Source: Oscillospiraceae bacterium
GTDB lineage: Bacteria > Bacillota > Clostridia > Oscillospirales > Ruminococcaceae
Reading direction: 5' to 3'
Assembly: GCA_016291435.1 (NCBI GenBank)
Contig: JAEEXH010000022.1
Location: 1-36,258, forward strand
DNA: 36,258 nt
Below are positions 8,951 to 34,844 of this stretch, piece by piece. Position 1 is the stretch's first letter; each line of letters starts with the position of its first letter. The notes beneath the pieces were generated by a model. That model had not been told where the DNA came from and did not search any database. It saw only the letters and a list, made by a program, of their open reading frames with translations. The translations under genes and the position numbers were made by a program.

Positions 8951-9034
8951 TGTCTGCCAGTGGGAGGATTCTTCCGCCAGCCGGCTGATCTGACGCCGGC
9001 ACACCACAGATTGATGATAAGGAGTTTTGCATAA

Positions 9035-9730
9035 ATGAAACACGGAAAGAAATATGTCGACAGCGCAAAGGCGCTCGACGCCAGCAAGCTGTACGAGCCG
9101 AACGAGGCACTCAGCACCGTTTGCACGCTCGCAAAGGCAAAGTTTGACGAGACCGTTGAGGCACACATCCGCCTCGGCGTTGACTCCCGTCACGCAGATC
9201 AGCAGGTCCGCGGCGCAGTTGTTCTGCCGAACGGTACCGGTAAGACCATCCGCATTCTCGTCTTCTGCAAGGAGGACAAGTATGAGGCAGCAAAGGCAGC
9301 CGGCGCAGACTATGTCGGCGGTCTGGATATGGTCGAGAAGATCCAGAAGGAAAACTGGATGGAGTTCGACGTTGTCATCGCATCGCCTGACATGATGGGC
9401 GTTGTCGGTAGACTCGGTAAGGTTCTCGGTCCGCGTGGCCTGATGCCGAACCCGAAGGCCGGCACTGTTTCGCCTGATGTCGCAAAGGCAGTTCAGGAGG
9501 CAAAGGCCGGTAAGATCGAGTACCGTCTCGACAAGTCCAACATCATTCACTGCCCGATCGGCAAGGTTTCCTTCGGCGCTGACAAGCTCGAGGAGAACTT
9601 CAACACCCTGCTTGAGGCAGTCGTGAAGGCAAAGCCGGCAGCAGCAAAGGGTACTTACCTGCGCTCTGTCACCGTCGCTTCCACTATGGGCGTCGGCGTG
9701 CCGGTTCTCACCACGAAGTTCGGTGTGTAA
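9035..9730 (+). CDS. rplA: Ribosomal protein L1
   Basis: A 231-residue uL1, full length, opening with [15 protein letters not shown], with the conserved core [20 protein letters not shown] and the C-terminal [16 protein letters not shown]. It binds 23S rRNA at the L1 stalk, and in many bacteria represses its own operon through the leader. AAGGAG precedes the ATG. The usual next genes rplJ and rplL are absent: a terminator and tRNA-Lys follow, so the classical cluster is broken here. Confidence 0.97.
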
Positions 9731-9982: not shown

Positions 9983-10017
9983 TTTCCGTATTTTGAAGCA
10001 AATTTCCGTATTTTGAA
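9983..10017. repeat. Tandem 15-mer, 20-bp period
   Basis: TTTCCGTATTTTGAA occurs at 9983-9997 and again at 10003-10017. It lies in the 510-base gene-free stretch between tRNA-Lys and the restriction-modification gene. Confidence 0.75.
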
Positions 10018-10030
10018 ACCGTTTTCACCC

Positions 10031-10217
10031 CGAATGCACCCGACCGTGCACACGAGCATTTTTAGGTGCATAAAAGTGCATGTGCACGCAGCCTTTGTGT
10101 ACCATAGCCCTCATTACTATGGAAATCGGTGCAGATACGAGAAATTTAGTGCCTAGAGTGTGCTTTGTGTCATGTGCACGAATGCACCCGAAAAAAATCG
10201 TTTTATCGCCTCGTGCA
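10031..10217. repeat. GTGCAC/TGCACCCG repeat cluster upstream of the island
   Basis: CGAATGCACCCGA occurs at 10031-10043 and 10179-10191. Further GTGCA or GTGCAC copies lie at about 10046, 10066, 10076, 10082, 10131, 10174 and 10213. No protein gene is supported here; a short frame at 10080-10277 looks random. The shared TGCAC core recalls the TGCACA array at 531-632. Confidence 0.6.
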
Positions 10218-10341
10218 CCCGTGAAACCCTCTTTTCATGAAATTTGCGAATTATACGGCGAAGGAGCAGTGCTGTAATGGTGCTGCTCTTTTTCTTTATC
10301 AGACAGAAAATGCTGGATAATAGAGAAACGGTCATTTCAGA

Positions 10342-10370
10342 TTGACATTATTACTAAATTATGGTATACT
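10342..10370 (+). promoter_or_regulatory. Strong promoter of the MmeI-like/HNH/KAP operon
   Basis: TTGACA (10342-10347), 17-base spacer, TATACT (10365-10370). It lies 48 bases before the ATG of the restriction-modification gene and is the only strong promoter seen for the three-gene unit. Confidence 0.88.
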
Positions 10371-10418
10371 ATATTCTGTATATGTATATCCATATCACAA
10401 ATATTGAAGGAGAAGGCC

Positions 10419-13211
10419 ATGACACCAAACGAACAGAAGAAGGCAGCTGCGGAATTTGCGGCACGCTGGAAGGATCAGGGATACGAAAAGGGGCAGAGCC
10501 AGCAGTTCTGGATGGATTTGCTGGTCAGCGTTTTCGGCGTGCAGGATATCAAAGGATTCATCAGCTTTGAGGATCAGGTGCAGCTCGACCATACCAGCTT
10601 CATCGACGGTTATATCCCGTCCACCCATGTTATGATCGAGCAGAAGTCGCTCGGCAAAGACCTGCGCAAGGCGATCAAGCAGTCTGACGGGCAGATGCTC
10701 TCTCCTTTTCAGCAGGCTAAACGCTATGCTGCTGAGCTGCCGTATTCGCAGCGTCCGCGCTGGATTATCACCTGCAACTTTGCTGAATTTAATATCTATG
10801 ACATGGAAAAGCCGAACGGCGAACCAGAGATCATTTTCCTGAAAGACTTTCCGAAAGAGTATTACCGGATGCAGTTCCTTGTCGATTCCGGCAGCGAGCT
10901 GATGAAACAGGAAATGGAGATTTCCCTGAAAGCCGGCGAGATCGTTGGCGCGCTGTATGATGCGCTGCTGAAACAGTATGCTGATCCGACAGCGCCGGCG
11001 ACGCTGCAAAGCCTGAACAAGCTGTGCGTTCGCCTGGTTTTCTGTCTGTATGCAGAGGATGCCAATATCTTCGGCAAACACATGATGTTCCATGACTACA
11101 TGAAGCAGTTTGACGCGAAATCTGCGCGAAAGGCTCTGATCGAGCTGTTTCAGGTTCTGGACACCAAAACGGAAGACCGTGATCCGTACATGGAAGAAGA
11201 CCTCGCAGCATTTCCGTATGTCAACGGCGGACTGTTTGCAGATGAACATATCGAGATCCCGCGGCTGACGGATGAGATCATGGATCTGATTCTGCGCAAG
11301 GCAAGTGAGGACTTTGACTGGTCGGGCATCTCCCCGACGATTTTCGGTGCGGTCTTTGAATCGACCTTGAACCCCGAAACGCGCCGCAGCGGCGGTATGC
11401 ACTATACCTCGATTGAGAACATCCACAAGGTTATTGATCCGCTGTTCCTTGACGATTTGCGGCAGGAATACGAGAGCATTATCGCGCTGAAAGATGTGTA
11501 TACGCGCAGAAAGCGGCTCCCTGCATTTCAGGAGAAGCTTGCCTCGCTGTGCTTCCTGGATCCGGCTTGCGGCAGCGGCAACTTCCTGACGGAGACCTAT
11601 CTCTCGCTGCGAAAGCTGGAGAACGAGGTCATCGCTCAGATTGTTGCGGATTCCTCCGGACAGGTCGGCGGTCAGATGATGCTCGGCGCAGAAACGCTGA
11701 ATCCGATCATGGTGTCGATCGGGCAGTTTTACGGCATCGAGATCAATGATTTCGCTGTGACAGTCGCCAAAACCGCCCTTTGGATTGCGGAAAGCCAGAT
11801 GATGCAGGAAACTGAGCGCTTGATGAATATTAACCTTGATTTCTTGCCGCTGAAATCTTATGCGAATATTGTCGAGGGCAACGCGCTGAGAATGGATTGG
11901 GCAAGCGTTGTACCGAGAGATAGATTATCCTATATTGCCGGAAATCCGCCGTTTGTCGGGGATAGACTCATGAATGATGAGCAAAAAGACGATGTGCTTA
12001 CTATCTTCGATGGTGTGAAAAACAATGGTAATCTGGACTATGTTTCTTGCTGGTATCAAAAGGCGGCGGAACTGATGACTGTCAATTCCGTCAGAGCAGC
12101 ACTGGTATCGACCAATTCCATTACTCAGGGAGAACAGGTTGCAATTCTCTGGAAGTACCTGTTCCGGCAGGGCGTACATATTGACTTTGCCCACCGCACC
12201 TTTGTGTGGGACAGCGAAGCAAGTCTGAAAGCCCATGTGCATTGTGTGATTGTCGGATTCAGCAAAGCGCCGAATTCTGCACCGCGCAGATTATACGACA
12301 ATGGAGCCATGAAGCAAGTCCGCAATATCAATGGTTATCTGGTTGAAGCAGATGATATTGTTTTAGACAGCCGGTCAAAGCCACTTTGTGCTGTGCCCGA
12401 AATCGGCATCGGCAACAAACCGATTGATGATCAGAATTATTTATTTTCATATGAAGAAATGCTTGAGTTTATAAAAAAAGAGCCGGCGTCAGAACAATTA
12501 TTTCATATTTGGCTTGGTGCAACAGAGTTCATCAATAATAAACCGCGATATTGTCTCTGGTTAGGTGATTGTTCTCCAAAAGAGTTGCTCAGTATGCCGG
12601 AGTGCTTAAAACGAGTAGAAGCTGTAAGACAATTTAGACTAGCTAGCAAAAGCGCGGGGACACGAAAACTTGCAGAAACACCGACACGGTTTCATGTAGA
12701 AAACATGCCGAAAGGATCATTCATTATTGTTCCTCGTCACTCCTCTGAGAATAGAAAATACATTCCCATTGGCTTTGAATCTCCAAATGTTTTTTCAGGA
12801 GATGCAAATCTAATTATACCTAATGCAACTCTTTTCCATTTTGGCGTTTTGACTTCAAATGTTCACATGGCATGGATCCGAACAGTATGCGGAAGAATTA
12901 AGAGTGACTACCGCTATTCAAAGGACATTGTGTATAACAACTTCCCGTGGTGCAATCCGACGCCGGAACAGCGGGCAAAAATCGAAAAAACGGCACAGCA
13001 TATCCTTGATGTCCGCGCAAAGTATTCTGACAGCAGTTTCGCTGATATGTACGGAGAGAAGATGTATCTGTACGGCGACCTCGTGACTGCGCATCAGATG
13101 AATGACAAAGCAGTCATGGAGGCATACGGCTTCTGGGGTAAGCTCAACTCCGAGAGCGAGTGCGTGGCTACGCTCATGAAGATGTATCAGGAGCTGACGG
13201 AGGGGAAATAA
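10419..13211 (+). CDS. MmeI-family type II restriction-modification fusion enzyme
   Basis: A 930-residue protein in the usual size range of MmeI-type enzymes, which cut and methylate DNA in one chain. An N-terminal PD-(D/E)xK nuclease is visible as D63 and E74-Q-K76 in FIDGYIPSTHVMIEQKS. A helical spacer follows to about 370. The adenine methylase has the SAM-binding motif DPACGSGNF (381-389) and catalytic NPPF (509-512). The rest is the target-recognition domain and a C-terminal helical region. Start: AAGGAG lies 6 bases before the ATG at 10419; a TTG at 10404 overlaps that site. Bases about 12420-12900 (residues about 668-827) are visibly A+T-richer than the gene ends, as if the recognition domain had been exchanged. 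The stop touches the ATG of the next gene. Alternatives: a PglX/BREX-like methylase, less likely because the nuclease motif is present. Confidence 0.85.
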   Translation: MTPNEQKKAAAEFAARWKDQGYEKGQSQQFWMDLLVSVFGVQDIKGFISFEDQVQLDHTSFIDGYIPSTHVMIEQKSLGKDLRKAIKQSDGQMLSPFQQAKRYAAELPYSQRPRWIITCNFAEFNIYDMEKPNGEPEIIFLKDFPKEYYRMQFLVDSGSELMKQEMEISLKAGEIVGALYDALLKQYADPTAPATLQSLNKLCVRLVFCLYAEDANIFGKHMMFHDYMKQFDAKSARKALIELFQVLDTKTEDRDPYMEEDLAAFPYVNGGLFADEHIEIPRLTDEIMDLILRKASEDFDWSGISPTIFGAVFESTLNPETRRSGGMHYTSIENIHKVIDPLFLDDLRQEYESIIALKDVYTRRKRLPAFQEKLASLCFLDPACGSGNFLTETYLSLRKLENEVIAQIVADSSGQVGGQMMLGAETLNPIMVSIGQFYGIEINDFAVTVAKTALWIAESQMMQETERLMNINLDFLPLKSYANIVEGNALRMDWASVVPRDRLSYIAGNPPFVGDRLMNDEQKDDVLTIFDGVKNNGNLDYVSCWYQKAAELMTVNSVRAALVSTNSITQGEQVAILWKYLFRQGVHIDFAHRTFVWDSEASLKAHVHCVIVGFSKAPNSAPRRLYDNGAMKQVRNINGYLVEADDIVLDSRSKPLCAVPEIGIGNKPIDDQNYLFSYEEMLEFIKKEPASEQLFHIWLGATEFINNKPRYCLWLGDCSPKELLSMPECLKRVEAVRQFRLASKSAGTRKLAETPTRFHVENMPKGSFIIVPRHSSENRKYIPIGFESPNVFSGDANLIIPNATLFHFGVLTSNVHMAWIRTVCGRIKSDYRYSKDIVYNNFPWCNPTPEQRAKIEKTAQHILDVRAKYSDSSFADMYGEKMYLYGDLVTAHQMNDKAVMEAYGFWGKLNSESECVATLMKMYQELTEGK

Positions 13212-13976
13212 ATGAGCGATGTTCAATTTGGTATATGTCATATCTGTGGTAACTATGGAGAACTGACCTTTGAACACATACCTCCTCAAAAAGCGTTTAA
13301 CTGGCAACGCGCCAAAATATATAATGGGTATGAGGCATTGAACAAAATCAATGGTGAGCCAGCAAAATTCATCAATTTGCAGCAAGGGATGGGTAAGTAT
13401 TCTTTATGTGAGCACTGTAATAATACTACCGGTTCATGGTATGCGCAAACCTATCGTGATATTGCCATGGATGTAGTGAAATATCTGCATAATAATGATC
13501 CACTTAAACATGGTGATGTTGTAACATTCACTTTTAAGGAGTGTCCCATTCTTCGATTTGTAAAGCAAGTTATAGCAATGTTTTGCAGTCTGTTACCATA
13601 TGAAGAAAACCAGAGATTAGGATTTGATAAGCTTATACTGAATAAAGAAAGTAATTCCGTTAACAAAGAATTGTTTGATTTGAGGATGTATCTTACACCG
13701 CCTGAAACTGGACAGTTGATGTGTGGACCGACTGTTGTGCTCTATAAAGCCGAGGAATCTATAAAAAGTGGTTGTGTAGCGGATCTTGCCGTATATCCAT
13801 TTGGATTCATACTGAATCTTACACCTGAAATAGATGTAAAGTATGGAACAAGCATCTTGAAAATGTTAGATGCAAATTACCATGACAGGCATGCTTTTGA
13901 GATAGCGTTGATGTACTTAGAACGGTATAATACAGACTTACCGCTTCCGTTAATTTATAAGGAATTACCAAAGTAA
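13212..13976 (+). CDS. HNH-like zinc-finger protein, candidate nuclease
   Basis: A 254-residue protein. The N-terminal 80 residues carry two cysteine pairs, C9-x2-C12 (CHICG) and C66-x2-C69 (CEHCNN), enclosing LTFEHIPPQKAFN (E21, H22). This layout is that of HNH nucleases with a zinc knuckle: EH as the first histidine motif and CNN as the asparagine site. The remaining 170 residues match no domain I know. Its ATG follows directly on the TAA of the restriction-modification gene, so translation is probably coupled; no separate promoter or clear ribosome-binding site is seen. It is A+T-rich compared with the housekeeping genes. It may be an effector nuclease working with the downstream NTPase, or a nicking partner of the restriction enzyme. 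Catalytic activity is inferred; a structural zinc-binding role is possible. Confidence 0.6.
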   Translation: MSDVQFGICHICGNYGELTFEHIPPQKAFNWQRAKIYNGYEALNKINGEPAKFINLQQGMGKYSLCEHCNNTTGSWYAQTYRDIAMDVVKYLHNNDPLKHGDVVTFTFKECPILRFVKQVIAMFCSLLPYEENQRLGFDKLILNKESNSVNKELFDLRMYLTPPETGQLMCGPTVVLYKAEESIKSGCVADLAVYPFGFILNLTPEIDVKYGTSILKMLDANYHDRHAFEIALMYLERYNTDLPLPLIYKELPK

Positions 13977-13989
13977 AGAAGGTGCTTTA

Positions 13990-16623
13990 ATGGCGAGCAA
14001 TCAAAATGACACCAAGGAACGAAAACTTGAGTATTTCTATCAGCTAAATAGTGTGATGCCATTGTTTAGAATTGCATCGGTTTCGATTCTCATCATAATG
14101 GGAGTATTAGTGATAGATATTCTTAATATTCCTTCTCTACTCTTTGAAAAAGCGCCTGAACAGCTAATACAGATTGTATTCGTAAGTGTTGTAATGCTTG
14201 CCGTTCTATGGATGCTTGAACACTCATATTTTCAAGCGTTCACATTGAAAACAGTAACACACATTGATGCTGCTATTATTTGCTTGTTTACATCTTCATT
14301 AATATTAAGAATAATATACTCTATTATAGTACCTAACTCCGCCTTCAAATCTAAAGGCACTTTAATCATAATGATTGTTGCATTATGTATGATTGTTTTT
14401 AGAGTACATAGGTGTAAATGCAAGCAGAATTTAAATGAACACTTATATGATCTTAAAGACATATTGAACAATAATTTTACGGTCTTAAATGATGAGCCCA
14501 TATTATTATCCGAGAAAGATGTAGATTATGATCTTTTGGATCGTAGTACAACGATTAATCAGCTATATTCTACCATCATTAATTTCCGTTCGGAACGCTC
14601 GTTTGTCATAGCGCTTTGTGGCGAATGGGGAAGCGGAAAGACAACAATTATAAATAATGTAAAGCGGTTGATTAACGAGAATAATAGAGAAGCTGTTGTA
14701 ATTGATGATTTTGATCCCTGGATTTTTGGAACACGCGACGCATTGTTATTATCAATGTATGATAAAATATTACAGAAAACTGGCATTAAATACAGTGTTT
14801 TAAAAAGTAAAAGAATAGCATCTTGTTTAAAACAGACTTTTGGCGACATTGGCAATACCATAACAAAATCGAAAGAAATCGGTTCCCTTTTTAAAGAATT
14901 GACCTCTCCTAATAGCTCATCTGATCAAATAACAACCATCAAAGCAGAATTGACCATGTATTTAAACTCTCTCAATAAGCCCATAGTCTTCATTATTGAC
15001 AATATCGATCGAGCTGAAGCAGATAATATCCTTTTCCTGTTTAAATTGATAGGGACTATATTTGATCTCCCAAATATTCTTTACATATTATCCTATGATT
15101 CGAATCGGGTAAAAGAACTGATAAATAACACTGCAAAAATTCACCCTAAATATATAGAAAAAATAGTTCAGCAAGAAATACAGATTCCATCGGCTCCTAA
15201 AGAGCATCTCGCAGCAGTGTATCAAATTTGTACTCAAAACATCTTGCAGCGTTATGGCATTGATTTTATGAGTAACAGAATATATACTGAAGTGTGCAAT
15301 GTGTTATGTAGTGACGGAAACGAAAACATTCGTAATTTTAAAAGATTGGTGAATTCTGTTTATTCCAATGTGCTTCCAAGTTGTAAACGACTTGATACAG
15401 CGACACTATTTTCGCTTGAGGCTATAAGATTTATTGTCCCTGAATTGTACGAACAGATTAGAACAAACCAAGAATATTTCATCTCGAGAGATACAATTTT
15501 ATCAGAGGAAAAAATAAGGATTAATTATTATAACAGGGAACAGTTTAATAAAAAAGGTAAGGCATATTATGATCAATTGTCTGATAAATATTCACGCTAT
15601 TTACCAATACTAAGTTTATTATTCCCATACGCTTCGCGATATATCAGACATGAGGAGTTAATGCCACAATATTCGTATGATAGCGACAGCTTTAACAGTA
15701 AATACCCTATTTATAGCGCCAAATTTTTCGATTTGTATTTTTCATATGGTAGTAATGAGTTTTCGATTATCTGCGAGTCCGTTGAAAATATGATTGCAAG
15801 CATTAACAACTCTGAAAAGAAAAAAGCAAGAACCATCTTAAAAAAGTATATCAATGAAATCGATACTAATTGGCAAAGGGAATGGTTTGAAACATTGCAA
15901 CTCTATACCGATGAGATTCTTGATTCTAGGAAATATGCATTGACAAAAGCTATCTGGTGGCAACTTGACTCAATTGACAATGGTTTAGAGTTTATGATGC
16001 TAAGTGCCCACCAGCGTGCTCTCATCATAATTGCAATATTAATAAAACAAATGAAAGCCGAGGAAGTAAGTGATTTTTATAGAAAATTAGGCAATAAATA
16101 TCAATGGGTTTTGCTGATTAGCGATCTAATCTATTGGATGGAGGTGGATAATAAACATTCAACCTCAGATAATAAATGGATTGATGATTTAAGAACCATT
16201 TACGCTAATATGTGCAACAAAATAATAGAAGAGAAGGTTCATTTATACGATTCTGCTTATTATCGCTATAAAAATATTTACGGCATATTACGCTTTTTCT
16301 GTGGCGAAAAGAACACTATTGATGATCGGGAAGTATGCAAACAATATATTCAGAATACATTCCTAGATGAATATGTTTATCGATTATTAGCAGATTGTAT
16401 TACCACTTCTCGCAGCGGAAATGTCTATGGCTACACTATTCAAGCTGATTCGGACCTTCTGCAATTCGTTGATAAAATTCGGATCGATGAAGCAATACAA
16501 CAAAGGCCACCGCGATCTGATATAGAAAAAATAGTCTTAAATCTATACCAAGAATATTGTGTAACAGGTCATGATGTTGAAAACCAATACTATTCATCCA
16601 CTCCTTTAAAGTTCAAATTATAA
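13990..16623 (+). CDS. Membrane-anchored KAP-family P-loop NTPase
   Basis: An 877-residue protein. Four hydrophobic segments lie near the N-terminus (about 25-45, 58-77, 92-113, 123-138). They are followed by a KAP-type NTPase: Walker A GEWGSGKTT (211-219), FDPWIF (241-246), and Walker B FIIDNIDR (334-341) followed by LYILSYDSN. The FxPW block and the insertion of membrane helices are hallmarks of the KAP group, which includes the phage-excluding PifA of plasmid F. The C-terminal 450 residues are helical, with no family I recognise. GAAGGTG precedes the ATG, 13 bases after the HNH-like gene. The gene is strongly A+T-rich, which points to transfer. A probable role is ATP-driven sensing or membrane-sited effector action in phage defence, inferred from family and neighbours. 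Confidence 0.82.
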   Translation: MASNQNDTKERKLEYFYQLNSVMPLFRIASVSILIIMGVLVIDILNIPSLLFEKAPEQLIQIVFVSVVMLAVLWMLEHSYFQAFTLKTVTHIDAAIICLFTSSLILRIIYSIIVPNSAFKSKGTLIIMIVALCMIVFRVHRCKCKQNLNEHLYDLKDILNNNFTVLNDEPILLSEKDVDYDLLDRSTTINQLYSTIINFRSERSFVIALCGEWGSGKTTIINNVKRLINENNREAVVIDDFDPWIFGTRDALLLSMYDKILQKTGIKYSVLKSKRIASCLKQTFGDIGNTITKSKEIGSLFKELTSPNSSSDQITTIKAELTMYLNSLNKPIVFIIDNIDRAEADNILFLFKLIGTIFDLPNILYILSYDSNRVKELINNTAKIHPKYIEKIVQQEIQIPSAPKEHLAAVYQICTQNILQRYGIDFMSNRIYTEVCNVLCSDGNENIRNFKRLVNSVYSNVLPSCKRLDTATLFSLEAIRFIVPELYEQIRTNQEYFISRDTILSEEKIRINYYNREQFNKKGKAYYDQLSDKYSRYLPILSLLFPYASRYIRHEELMPQYSYDSDSFNSKYPIYSAKFFDLYFSYGSNEFSIICESVENMIASINNSEKKKARTILKKYINEIDTNWQREWFETLQLYTDEILDSRKYALTKAIWWQLDSIDNGLEFMMLSAHQRALIIIAILIKQMKAEEVSDFYRKLGNKYQWVLLISDLIYWMEVDNKHSTSDNKWIDDLRTIYANMCNKIIEEKVHLYDSAYYRYKNIYGILRFFCGEKNTIDDREVCKQYIQNTFLDEYVYRLLADCITTSRSGNVYGYTIQADSDLLQFVDKIRIDEAIQQRPPRSDIEKIVLNLYQEYCVTGHDVENQYYSSTPLKFKL

Positions 16624-16710
16624 AATGCGAATGAATAGAGAAACAGGATTTCTTTAGCGAACCGCCTAAGTAATTATTTGCTTTGCTGGATGACAGTACA
16701 ATAAAAAAGC

Positions 16711-16835: not shown

Positions 16836-16926
16836 TGTATATGCCGCCCCCAGAACCGCACCTGCACGGGGGTTCGACCGCACTCTGCCGGGCATTGAAC
16901 CGCACGCTGCCGGACGTTGACCGCAC
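16836..16926 (+). repeat. Left end of the IS21 element, four transposase-site repeats
   Basis: Terminal TGTATATGCCGCCCCCAG is followed by four GA(A)CCGCAC units starting at 16853, 16876, 16897 and 16919, spaced 21-23 bases (two helical turns). This is the multiple-site end expected for IS21 IstA binding. Confidence 0.88.
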
Positions 16927-16946
16927 CTATCCGAATCCTGTATACT
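16917..16946 (+). promoter_or_regulatory. Transposase promoter within the left IS end
   Basis: TTGACC (16917-16922), 18-base spacer, TATACT (16941-16946) preceded by TG. The -35 lies within the fourth IstA-site repeat, so IstA binding could repress its own transcription. Confidence 0.65.
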
Positions 16947-16994
16947 AATCATAGCACACAACAATGTGTGACTTGAAATACAGGAGGTTCGGAT

Positions 16995-18545
16995 ATGACG
17001 AACTATCGGAAAATCTTGGAGATGCATTCCCAGGGGCATAGCCAGAGAAGCATCGAAGCGAGCGTTCACTGCTCACATCAGACGGTCAGGTCAGTACTCG
17101 ACCGCGCTCAGGAACTGCACATCACCTGGCCGCTTGATGACGATGTGACCAACGAGGCGCTTGACGAGCTGCTCTACGGTAGACACGAAAGCAGCCCCAC
17201 GCCCTATGCTGTCATCAACTACGAGTACATTCATCAGCAGTTATCCCAGAAGGGCGTTACGCTCACACTGCTCTGGCAGGAGTATTGCGAAGCAGCCTAC
17301 GCCAACGGCGAAACGCCGTACATGAGCACGCAGTTCGGCGACAAATACCGCCGTTGGGCGCGTGTCACGAAAGCAACAATGCGCGTCACCCACAAGCCTG
17401 GTGACACCATGCAGGTCGATTGGGCGGGTGGTACGATCCCGTATTATGACTCCGTGACCGGCGAGGAGTACAAGGCGTATCTGTTCGTGGCAGCATTGCC
17501 GTGCAGCAGCTACCTCTATGTGGAAGCCTGCGCAGACATGAAGATCGAGAACTGGCTGATGTGCCACGTTCATGCTTACGCATATTTCGGCGGTGTGACG
17601 CGGATTCTGGTACCGGATAACCTCAAAACCGGTGTAACCGCCAATACCCGCTATGAAACACAGTTGAATCATAGTTACCAGGAACTTGCAGAATACTACG
17701 GCACGGCAATCGTTCCGGCGCGTGTACGCAAGCCACAGGACAAAGGGCTTGTAGAAAAGTCGGTCGGATTCTCCACGACATGGATCAGCGCAGCACTTCG
17801 TGAACGTAAGTTTTTCTCCATTGCGGAGGTGCAGGAAGCCGTCGCAGAACGTCTGGAATACATCAACACCAAGCCATTTCAGAAGCGTCCTGGCTGCCGC
17901 AGAGAGGCGTATCTTGCAGAGGAGAAGGAATTCATGCTGCCGCTTCCAAAGCAGCCGTATGAGCCATCTGTATGGAAGCAGCAGGTAGTTGGCAATGACT
18001 ATCTGATCTCGGACGGGATGAACAAGTACTCTGTGCCGTTTGACCTGATCGGCGAACAAGTACAGATCAGATTGACACGCGATCTAGTTGAGGTGTATTT
18101 CAAGGGCAGCCGCATGACCTCTCACAAACGGCTCGAAAAGTACAGTGTCCAGCCAATTGTGAAGCCGGAGCATATGCCAGACAGACATCGGGAATACCTG
18201 CATTGCAATGCTGACGAGTTCAGGACATGGGCGAAAACCATTGGAAAATCTACTGAGGAGATCGTGAGATACTTCCTGTCCTCCGGTGCTGCTGCTGAAC
18301 AGGGCTACAAGGCTTGTGTCAGCCTGACGAAGCTCGGAAAGCGGTACGGCAAAAAGAAGCTGGAATCTGCCTGTGAGCGAATGCTGGCCTTTACCTCATC
18401 GCCGTCTATCCGCACAATTGCAACGCTTTTGAAGAACAGTCGCGAGCCGGAAAAGAGTTCCGAAGAAACGGAATCCGGCAGCAAGTACGGCATTACCCGC
18501 GGCGCAGCCTACTGGAAAAAGGGAGGTGGCGGTAATGTTGAATAA
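16995..18545 (+). CDS. istA: IS21 transposase IstA
   Basis: A 516-residue DDE transposase. An N-terminal helix-turn-helix covers about 1-45 ([20 protein letters not shown]). The catalytic core has D142 (MQVDWAG), D208 (VPDNLKTG) and E254 ([10 protein letters not shown]), and a C-terminal beta-barrel holds [14 protein letters not shown]. It cuts and joins the element ends with help from IstB. AGGAGG lies 8 bases before the ATG. No frameshift or stop interrupts it. Confidence 0.95.
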
Positions 18546-19302
18546 CACGTTAGAGCGCCTCCGTGCCATGAAAATGAGCGCGTTTGCGGATGAGCTGGAG
18601 CGCCAGGCCGAGGATGCAAGCAGCTATGGTCAGCTTGGATTCGAGGACAGATTGTCGCTGCTGGTCGATTGCGAGTGGAACCGTCGGCAGAATAACAAGC
18701 TTCTCCGCTTCATCCGAAATGCGCATTTTTCCAATCCTTCGGCTACGATGGAGGGCATTGAATACATTGAGGACAGGCATCTGGACAAGGGCAGGATGCT
18801 GCGATTTGCGACCTGCCGGTATGTTGACGAGGGGCGGCATATTATCCTGAAGGGTGCTTCTGGAAACGGCAAAACCTACATCGCCTGTGCGCTTGGCAAC
18901 GCTGCCTGCCGCAAGTTCAAGTCAGTGCGTTACATCCGGATGCCGGAGCTTCTGGACGAGCTGAGTGTTGCTAAGGCAAACGGCGAATTTGCAAAGGTTA
19001 TCAAGGCATACAAGAAGGTGGATCTGCTGATCCTTGATGAGTGGCTGATCCGCTGCCTGACGCCGAATGAGAGCTATGATCTGCTGGAGATCATTGAATC
19101 GCGTATTGAGCGGTCTATGATTTTCTGTACGCAATACCATACCGAGGGGTGGTACGACCGCATCAACGCTGATCCGAACAATGACAGCCCGATCTCTGAT
19201 GCGATCATTGACAGGATCGTCAACACCGCATATCCGGTCATGATCGACGGAGAAGTCTCAATGCGCAGGCGGCATGGACTCCCGGAAGGAGCAGAGCCGT
19301 GA
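18535..19302 (+). CDS. istB: IS21 helper ATPase IstB
   Basis: A 255-residue AAA+ ATPase related to DnaC. Walker A is GASGNGKT (107-114) and Walker B is LLILDEW (164-170). IstB loads on target DNA and directs IstA to it. GGGAGG (18521-18526) lies 8 bases before the ATG at 18535, favouring it over an in-frame GTG at 18526 that overlaps the ribosome-binding site. It overlaps the end of istA by 11 bases, typical of IS21. Confidence 0.95.
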
Positions 19303-19496
19303 TGGAGAATTACTGTGCTTTTAGTCAGGATCACAAGTGCCTGAAATGGTACGATTATGAGCTTACTCGACATGAATTGGAAGAAGCTGACCGCCTTTGT
19401 CACGGTAACTGGATAGAGATCCAGCGCCTGTATGCGTACATTGACGAACTCAGAGCCATTCTTGAGAAAAATCATATAGATTATCCTGAGCTCTAA
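19302..19496 (+). CDS. Small third ORF of the IS21 element
   Basis: A 64-residue frame, [20 protein letters not shown] onward, whose ATG overlaps the istB stop (TGATG), suggesting translational coupling. It is charged, helical in its second half (LEEADRLCHGNWIEIQRLYA) and has no known domain. It lies inside the element before the right end and so moves with it. It could be a real accessory protein of this IS subgroup; function unknown. Confidence 0.55.
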   Translation: MENYCAFSQDHKCLKWYDYELTRHELEEADRLCHGNWIEIQRLYAYIDELRAILEKNHIDYPEL

Positions 19497-19561
19497 TCAA
19501 GCTCAGGGCTGAGTTTCCTGAAGGGAGCCTGCTGGTGTATTCTGACAGGCTCCTGCTTCGG

Positions 19562-19652
19562 GTGCGGTTTTGCTCCGGCAAGATGCGGTTCAACGTCCGG
19601 CAAGGCGCGGTTTGCACCCCGTGCAGGTGCGGTTCTGGGGGCGGCATATACA
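19562..19652 (-). repeat. Right end of the IS21 element, four repeats
   Basis: GTGCGGTT-type units start at about 19562, 19583, 19605 and 19627, again about 22 bases apart, followed by CTGGGGGCGGCATATACA. It mirrors the left end. Confidence 0.88.
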
Positions 19653-34616: not shown

Positions 34617-34689
34617 GGGGGTGTAGCTCAGCTGGGAGAGCACCTGCTTTGCAAGCAGGGGGTCAGGGGTTCGATTCCCCTCATCTCCA
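34617..34689 (+). tRNA. tRNA-Ala (anticodon TGC)
   Basis: 73 bases in the 16S-23S spacer. The acceptor GGGGGTG pairs with CATCTCC including the G3-U70 pair that identifies alanine tRNA; the anticodon loop is TTTGCAA. Confidence 0.97.
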
Positions 34690-34696
34690 TGGAAAT

Positions 34697-34770
34697 GGGC
34701 CAATAGCTCAGCCGGTTAGAGCACACGCCTGATAAGCGTGAGGTCGGTGGTTCGAGTCCACTTTGGCCCA
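34697..34770 (+). tRNA. tRNA-Ile (anticodon GAT)
   Basis: 74 bases. The acceptor GGGCCAA pairs with TTGGCCC plus A, and the anticodon loop is CTGATAA. The Ala-Ile pair in the spacer is common. Confidence 0.97.
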
Positions 34771-34844
34771 CTTCTTTCTCAATCAGGATAGATTTGAGAA
34801 GAAAAGAGATTTTCTTCTGAAATCTGTTCTGAAAAGAGCAGAGA

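Follow-up and report, generated by a model that had tools for sequence, protein, structure and literature searches.

A restriction-modification operon led by an MmeI-type gene in an Oscillospiraceae genome, with a probable slot for exchangeable cargo behind it

The window analysed here is a 36,258-nucleotide stretch of DNA from an Oscillospiraceae bacterium (assembly GCA_016291435.1, contig JAEEXH010000022.1, forward strand), and the subject of this report is a group of three same-strand genes within it, encoding an MmeI-type restriction-modification (R-M) enzyme (10419-13211), an HNH-like protein (13212-13976) and a KAP NTPase (13990-16623), separated by gaps of 0 and 13 bases. Genes placed directly behind an MmeI-type gene are referred to below as cargo, and L and G numbers denote the loci and genomes compared. 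The features of the operon are as follows.

10342..10370, + strand: promoter TTGACA-17-TATACT with TG before the -10 element (11/12 consensus matches)
10419..13211, + strand: MmeI-type (type IIL/IIG) single-chain R-M gene (open reading frame (ORF) list, Pfam, PADLOC and motifs)
12348..12953, + strand: MmeI target recognition domain (TRD; Pfam MmeI_TRD, residues 649-850 numbered from the TTG)
13071..13211, + strand: last ~46 codons of the MmeI gene, a segment recurring past the cargo in five other loci
13212..13976, + strand: HNH-like protein of 254 amino acids (C9, C12, EH22, C66, C69-N70)
13990..16623, + strand: membrane KAP NTPase of 877 amino acids, PifA-like
14086..14406, + strand: four predicted KAP membrane helices (residues 33-139; hydropathy count)

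A first-pass annotation, made from the sequence alone, had placed three tightly spaced genes behind one promoter, and these coordinates were confirmed. The promoter scan taken as a whole gave no excess of sites (20 found, 21.4 expected from shuffled sequences), while the stretch 10342-10370 was found to be kept in a sister species, at 93% identity before one other R-M gene and 89% before a third. The layout suggests that the MmeI, HNH-like and KAP genes share a single transcript, along which G+C content drops from 48.8% (MmeI) to 36.9% (HNH-like) and 33.0% (KAP).

The MmeI reading frame is open from a TTG at 10404, and the start which fits a ribosome site (AAGGAGAAGGCC-ATG) is the ATG at 10419, most likely the translation start; the stop codon ends at 13211. 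The enzyme was predicted to be complete in a single chain, and this was borne out by all five Pfam MmeI domains scoring above cut-off (MTase 1.6e-88, TRD 1.4e-70, N 2.9e-38, helical 4.6e-22 and C 1.2e-15), by a PADLOC REase_MTase_IIG match of 1159.9 bits and by intact motifs (numbered from the TTG: D68...E79-x-K81, DPACGSGNF from residue 385 and NPPF at 514), which we presume to carry their customary meanings. Enzymes of the MmeI family methylate self DNA and cut unmethylated foreign DNA.

The HNH-like protein gave only a sub-threshold match to Pfam HNH_5 (E 0.33, 11.3 bits; gathering score 27.5), and two of its relatives (L015 and L002) scored 19.2 and 20.6 bits. In an 11-row alignment of the family, H22, P25, N30, G59, C66, C69 and G74 were invariant and C9 and C12 were present in at least 90% of rows, and relatives from Firmicutes, Proteobacteria, Cyanobacteria and Actinobacteria keep the CxxC ... 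EH ... CxxCN pattern. The label proposed at first pass is therefore fair, because the family alignment keeps the zinc pattern, although every profile stays below its cut-off, and the protein may cut nucleic acid. A scan of genome contigs returned one relative (Bradyrhizobium, L015), while a sequence search of the PDB returned none.

The KAP protein matched Pfam KAP_NTPase (1.2e-44) and PADLOC PifA (3.3e-44, residues 189-815), with a Walker A motif (GEWGSGKT) at 211 and a Walker-B-like VFIIDNIDR near 332; the score for NCBIfam QatA of the Qat system was 26 bits, with a cut-off of 600 bits. Hydrophobic segments lie at residues 33-51, 58-76, 96-114 and 121-139, so that the earlier description of a four-helix membrane KAP NTPase of the PifA class holds, with the helices called by hydropathy count only. 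The KAP domain and a downstream region are common to the window protein and the PifA-type KAP NTPases, but the window protein has an extra N-terminal four-helix block (33-139) ahead of the PADLOC PifA match region, and its position behind R-M genes, in the window and in Lactobacillus intestinalis, also sets it apart from the PifA type. The protein may sense or act at the membrane; a role in phage exclusion is suggested by family membership alone.

To place the operon in context, relatives of the MmeI enzyme were collected from genomes of the same family (38 of 396 at E<=1e-150) and the same order (46 of 394 at E<=1e-100), own genome included; like the source genome, these are drafts. The 3' flank of every match reaching the C terminus was taken (36 family and 42 order loci, 79 with the window), excluding 7 family and 4 order matches which fell short of the 3' end, and an MmeI gene was scored as having cargo if an ORF of 100 codons or more on the same strand began between -30 and +60 bases from its stop. 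After removal of L076 and L077, which have flanks of less than 400 bases, cargo was present in 43 of 77 loci (window included), in many at a gap of -4 to +4 bases. Eight of the 43 were judged by eye to be housekeeping or doubtful, and the labels galE, trmB, Tex, xylanase, MATE, recombinase and HsdM (L156) given to downstream genes were likewise assigned by eye. In the 46 loci with both flanks (9 of 55 were dropped as one flank was missing), the same rule was satisfied downstream in 29 and upstream in 8 (Fisher p 1.4e-5, relatedness ignored).

The first to third cargo genes of 31 loci and of the window were scanned with Pfam, and defence-type families were found above cut-off in 12 loci, including the window with its KAP gene. 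The other loci are listed below.

Schlafen/AlbA_2: L065, L066, L148 (Pfam)
TIR: L080 (Pfam)
SIR2: L081, L087 (Pfam; PADLOC ThsA for L081, PDC-S25 for L087)
AbiH: L091 (Pfam; PADLOC AbiH)
RES: L090 (Pfam)
OLD-type ATPase: L135 (Pfam; PADLOC Old) and L059, as second gene after 232 bases (Pfam)
ApeA/HEPN: L137 (Pfam; PADLOC PDC-S58)

A DUF6414 gene follows MmeI in two families (L141 and L146), starting 5 bases past the MmeI stop with 79% DNA identity. On plasmids, where the MmeI neighbours in 12 of 262 records, spread over genera, were examined, a co-directional gene of at least 100 amino acids within 60 bases was found in 3 of the 12 (Abi_C, a PLD-like protein below cut-off and Mrr), while two had only a short ORF (81 and 52 amino acids) and seven had none. 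Two further likenesses were noted among the cargo: a family of ~325 amino acids starting M(T)SK(L/I)SYI(F/L)K stands behind MmeI in L140, L152 and L154, with a sub-threshold HEPN_Swt1 match (2.8e-4), and the 186-residue partner of the SIR2 protein in L081 and the 190-residue partner of the OLD-type ATPase in L135 are similar by eye.

One same-genus pair has the slot empty in one genome and filled in the other. In G536 a galE flank begins at +3 after the MmeI stop; in G499 the same flank begins at +1094, behind 1.09 kb which contains cargo, and the shared flank is 90.6% identical over 1047 bases. Two MmeI proteins which are 93.7% identical, from different families, were found with different cargo (OLD in one; DUF6650 and a HEPN-like gene in the other), and DNA identity between the two genes stays at 93-99% through most of 1440-2520, then drops from 97-98% to 70% and 61% in the final two 90-base bins, which cover the last ~160 bases. 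In 5 of the 79 loci (L080, L084, L085, L091 and L173) the MmeI 3' end was found a second time past the insert, on the same strand as MmeI. The copied segment comprises the last ~25-45 codons, and in L085, where the insert (Fic/RhuM type) lies on the opposite strand, takes in 19 bases past the stop; in L173 (G623), where base 515 of the oriented piece is the last of the MmeI stop, the cargo ATG follows 23 bases on. Searches with seven other 110-residue slices of MmeI gave no match in any of the 79 loci. In L145 and L172 the MmeI 3' end had weak matches on the opposite strand (E 5e-4 and 0.008), which vanish at E 1e-4 and were set aside.

Base composition also distinguishes the cargo. In 30 of 30 cargo genes, picked by hand, G+C content was below that of the MmeI 3' part (mean -11 points), while in loci without cargo the first ORF was below MmeI in 15 of 34 (mean +1.7; Mann-Whitney against cargo 4.9e-10). 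The source genome is a 155-contig draft with 3.6% contamination, probably a mixed-sample assembly, and the window contig may be chimeric, but low cargo G+C is general across the loci. A second copy of 9013-9585, 90% identical, is present in the same draft (G000:C6:3591-4162), which hints at strain mixture or contamination.

On the 5' side of the operon two features are of note.

9990..10422, + strand: leader, with repeated TGCAC words, a hairpin, the promoter, the ribosome site and the start codon
9835..9908, + strand: tRNA-Lys (TTT), at the 3' end of which sister species of the genus diverge

The leader is 93% identical, up to the ATG, in the same-genus genome G397, which exceeds the conservation of the rplA side (about 85%). 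In G397 this ATG opens a type I hsdM gene (HsdM_N 1.4e-12, N6_Mtase 1.4e-41) which stops at 317 amino acids and is truncated, and the promoter part is found again (89%) ahead of a ResIII/DUF4145 ORF. In G396, G398 and G374, and in a separate copy in G399, the match runs only as far as 9909, at the 3' end of tRNA-Lys. The words TGCAC and GTGCA occur in 6 and 7 copies in the leader, which may serve as an operator or mark one end of a mobile unit. One promoter sequence is thus seen before three different R-M genes in the genus (MmeI, the truncated hsdM and the ResIII/DUF4145 ORF; L183 and L190, both G397). Upstream of MmeI in other loci, related membrane proteins are encoded in L110 (539-1459, 306 amino acids, 38 bases off) and L116 (545-1489, 314 amino acids, 5 bases off), and in L037 a 339-residue protein that contains an EHVIP motif is encoded 49 bases upstream. 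A slot on the 5' side of MmeI may also exist.

The operon layout, the changing cargo, the empty/filled pair, the 3'-end copies and the G+C contrast can all be read off the DNA itself, and we interpret the locus, with a probability of roughly 0.6, as an R-M operon with a cargo slot, in which the MmeI enzyme is the first line of defence and its gene a docking site for exchangeable second-line effectors, here the HNH-like and KAP proteins. The MmeI gene seems to be the docking point because the slot is empty in some relatives and occupied by other defence-type genes in others. The cargo would serve in defence when restriction fails or is blocked, by analogy with PrrC and EcoprrI. A model of restriction as first line with a second line behind it had been put forward at first pass, and the wider pattern of MmeI cargo makes it more likely.

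Such a locus could work as follows. One promoter would drive a complete MmeI enzyme which methylates self DNA and cuts unmethylated DNA, and read-through would express whatever genes are placed directly behind the MmeI stop codon. Cargo would enter by recombination at the MmeI 3' end and may leave a 3'-end copy past the insert; for the window this route is deduced from its relatives, because no such copy remains there. The cargo product would be held in check or idle until a phage defeats restriction, to judge from PrrC (PMC3710099) and a review (PMC12707154). For the present pair the plainest guess is a membrane NTPase which senses or executes, with a nuclease-like partner.

Several observations weigh against this interpretation. 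The window has no second copy of the MmeI 3' end, 34 of the 77 loci have no cargo under the rule used, and most cargo proteins match no characterised family. Taken by itself, the 5'/3' asymmetry says no more than that MmeI comes first in its operon; bacteria commonly have closely spaced genes on one strand, and defence islands could yield part of the cargo pattern. An unusually similar MmeI 3' end was seen in only 1 of 6 same-cargo pairs; a cassette carrying its own MmeI end, such that the same cargo means the same 3' end, was therefore not generally found, and cargo need not bring an MmeI 3' end along with it. Relatives of the KAP protein in G289, G327 and Acetoanaerobium noterae have no R-M gene adjacent, and the HNH-like gene is solitary in most places, lying within an R-M operon in 1 of 7 other genomes which have it (G454). 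An AlphaFold model of the HNH-like protein from a two-row input reached a pLDDT of 37.7.

A bolder form of the cargo-slot reading, which we put at somewhat short of even odds, is that MmeI-type genes are integrase-free docking platforms. The fixed leader and start codon would accept different R-M bodies, the TRD would be swapped in mid-gene (in the same-genus pair L108/L113 the TRD part of MmeI is exchanged) and the last ~45 codons would form the recombination joint for effector cassettes, so that one transcript would always couple the current specificity with a back-up effector, the HNH-like and KAP genes being one loading.

The strongest competing explanation, though a less likely one, is accretion of a defence island, whereby three independent defence genes gathered beside a tRNA hotspot; they would lie close together by accident, with neither function nor evolution tying them to MmeI. 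It would account for the strong differences in G+C among the three genes, the occurrence of the HNH-like and KAP genes alone elsewhere, the variable tRNA-Lys 3' end in the genus and the recombinases, relaxases and IS elements near several copies. It accounts poorly for inserts which sit at the stop codon (many at -4 to +4 bases), are co-directional and predominate downstream (29 against 8 of 46), and for an exact empty/filled pair and 3'-end copies derived from the C-terminal slice of MmeI alone.

It is far less probable that the HNH-like and KAP genes form a dedicated two-gene system (a KAP sensor ATPase with an HNH nuclease) parked behind MmeI, as the first-pass annotation had allowed. Their 13-base spacing, similar low G+C and common strand fit such a system, but the two were never found together outside the window's own genome in the sample, which is not a census. 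Relatives of the HNH-like protein were found in 4 of 396 family genomes (own included; others G284, G311 and G386) and 5 of 195 order genomes (own included), and KAP relatives (E<=1e-20) in 5 of 396 family genomes (own included; others G082, G127, G289 and G327), with none besides its own in the 195 order genomes at E<=1e-40. Both occurred in none of the 395 other family genomes, the 16 plasmid records with the HNH-like gene and the 19 with KAP had no accession in common, and neither gene was present in the 78 other MmeI 3' flanks. The first-pass annotation had named a lack of co-occurrence elsewhere as refuting its proposal; no second instance of the pair was found in the sample, and a fixed HNH-KAP module was rejected within the sampled genomes and plasmids.

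Each gene was instead found once, on its own, in an operon of type I R-M genes. In G454 (hsdR-259aa-hsdS-HNH-hsdM) the HNH-like gene directly abuts both hsdS and hsdM, and in Lactobacillus intestinalis DSM 6629 (hsdR-hsdM-hsdS-hsdS-KAP) a KAP relative (28.6% identity over 77%) begins 6 bases past the last hsdS. Each can therefore join R-M operons, and since each occurs apart, it is possible that they were added one after another. An effector gene inside or directly behind an R-M operon was found in the window, L206 and L214. The two other full-length KAP relatives (G289 and G327) are solitary, beside relaxase/integrase and recombinase genes. Plasmid neighbourhoods were examined in 10 of the 16 HNH records and 2 of the 19 KAP records. 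A phage origin was also considered and rejected: 50,697 phage records held no HNH relative and no KAP relative at E<=1e-8, and MmeI in 5 records, while scans of viral contigs for KAP, HNH and MmeI gave no confirmed relative.

That the two proteins are obligate parts of a three-part MmeI system, required for cutting, is very improbable. The shared apparent operon speaks for it, but MmeI relatives 60-72% identical lack both, many lack any cargo, and no domain or catalytic motif is missing from the MmeI chain. The earlier claim that both genes are locked to MmeI is not supported, neither being present in the 78 other flanks.

Coupling of R-M to a back-up is an established idea for type I systems and for BREX (PMC12839542, PMC12707154, PMC3710099). 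The present locus resembles PrrC with the type Ic R-M system EcoprrI, and other R-M operons that encode HEPN proteins (PMC3710099, PMC12707154), in a possibly toxic second line within an R-M operon and in changing partners; those cases, however, concern type I and other multi-gene R-M systems, whereas here the anchor is the one-gene MmeI, the cargo lies strictly 3' and there is evidence of swapping. BREX auxiliary or back-up effectors (PMC12839542) likewise include Schlafen, HEPN, OLD and HNH proteins beside a methylation-based defence, but the BREX core has many genes, and MmeI and KAP have no occurrence in the main text of that paper. The variable hotspots of P2-like phages and P4 satellites (PMC9122126) also hold ever-different antiviral genes in one fixed place; phage genes define that place there, the R-M gene's 3' end here. 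The window enzyme resembles the type IIL MmeI enzymes (PMC4833311) in all five Pfam domains and the catalytic motifs, and differs from them in its putative 3' cargo slot. The open-access literature searched (subscription papers were outside the scope) yielded no account of such a slot following genes of the MmeI type.

Second-line partners of R-M genes are known chiefly in type I systems (PrrC). Should the most common single-gene R-M type also carry a changing 3' partner, the gene behind MmeI would be a cheap place to seek new anti-phage effectors, and families without an assigned function recur there (the SKLSYIFK family, DUF6414, DUF6602 and DUF6650). If the cargo-slot reading is correct, the empty/filled pair and the 3'-end copies would make gain and loss of defence genes directly testable, and the loci would form a natural set combining one first line with many second lines.

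Directly past the operon lies one further feature.

16836..19652, + strand: IS21-type element with 92-base inverted ends (istA 16995-18545, istB 18526-19302)

An imperfect direct repeat (10307-10329 and 16622-16644, 18/23) exactly brackets the three genes and is regarded as probably due to chance, because eight such repeat families occur in 10.6 kb. Near the contig end a tandem tRNA-Ala and tRNA-Ile (34617-34771) were observed, arranged as inside an rRNA operon.

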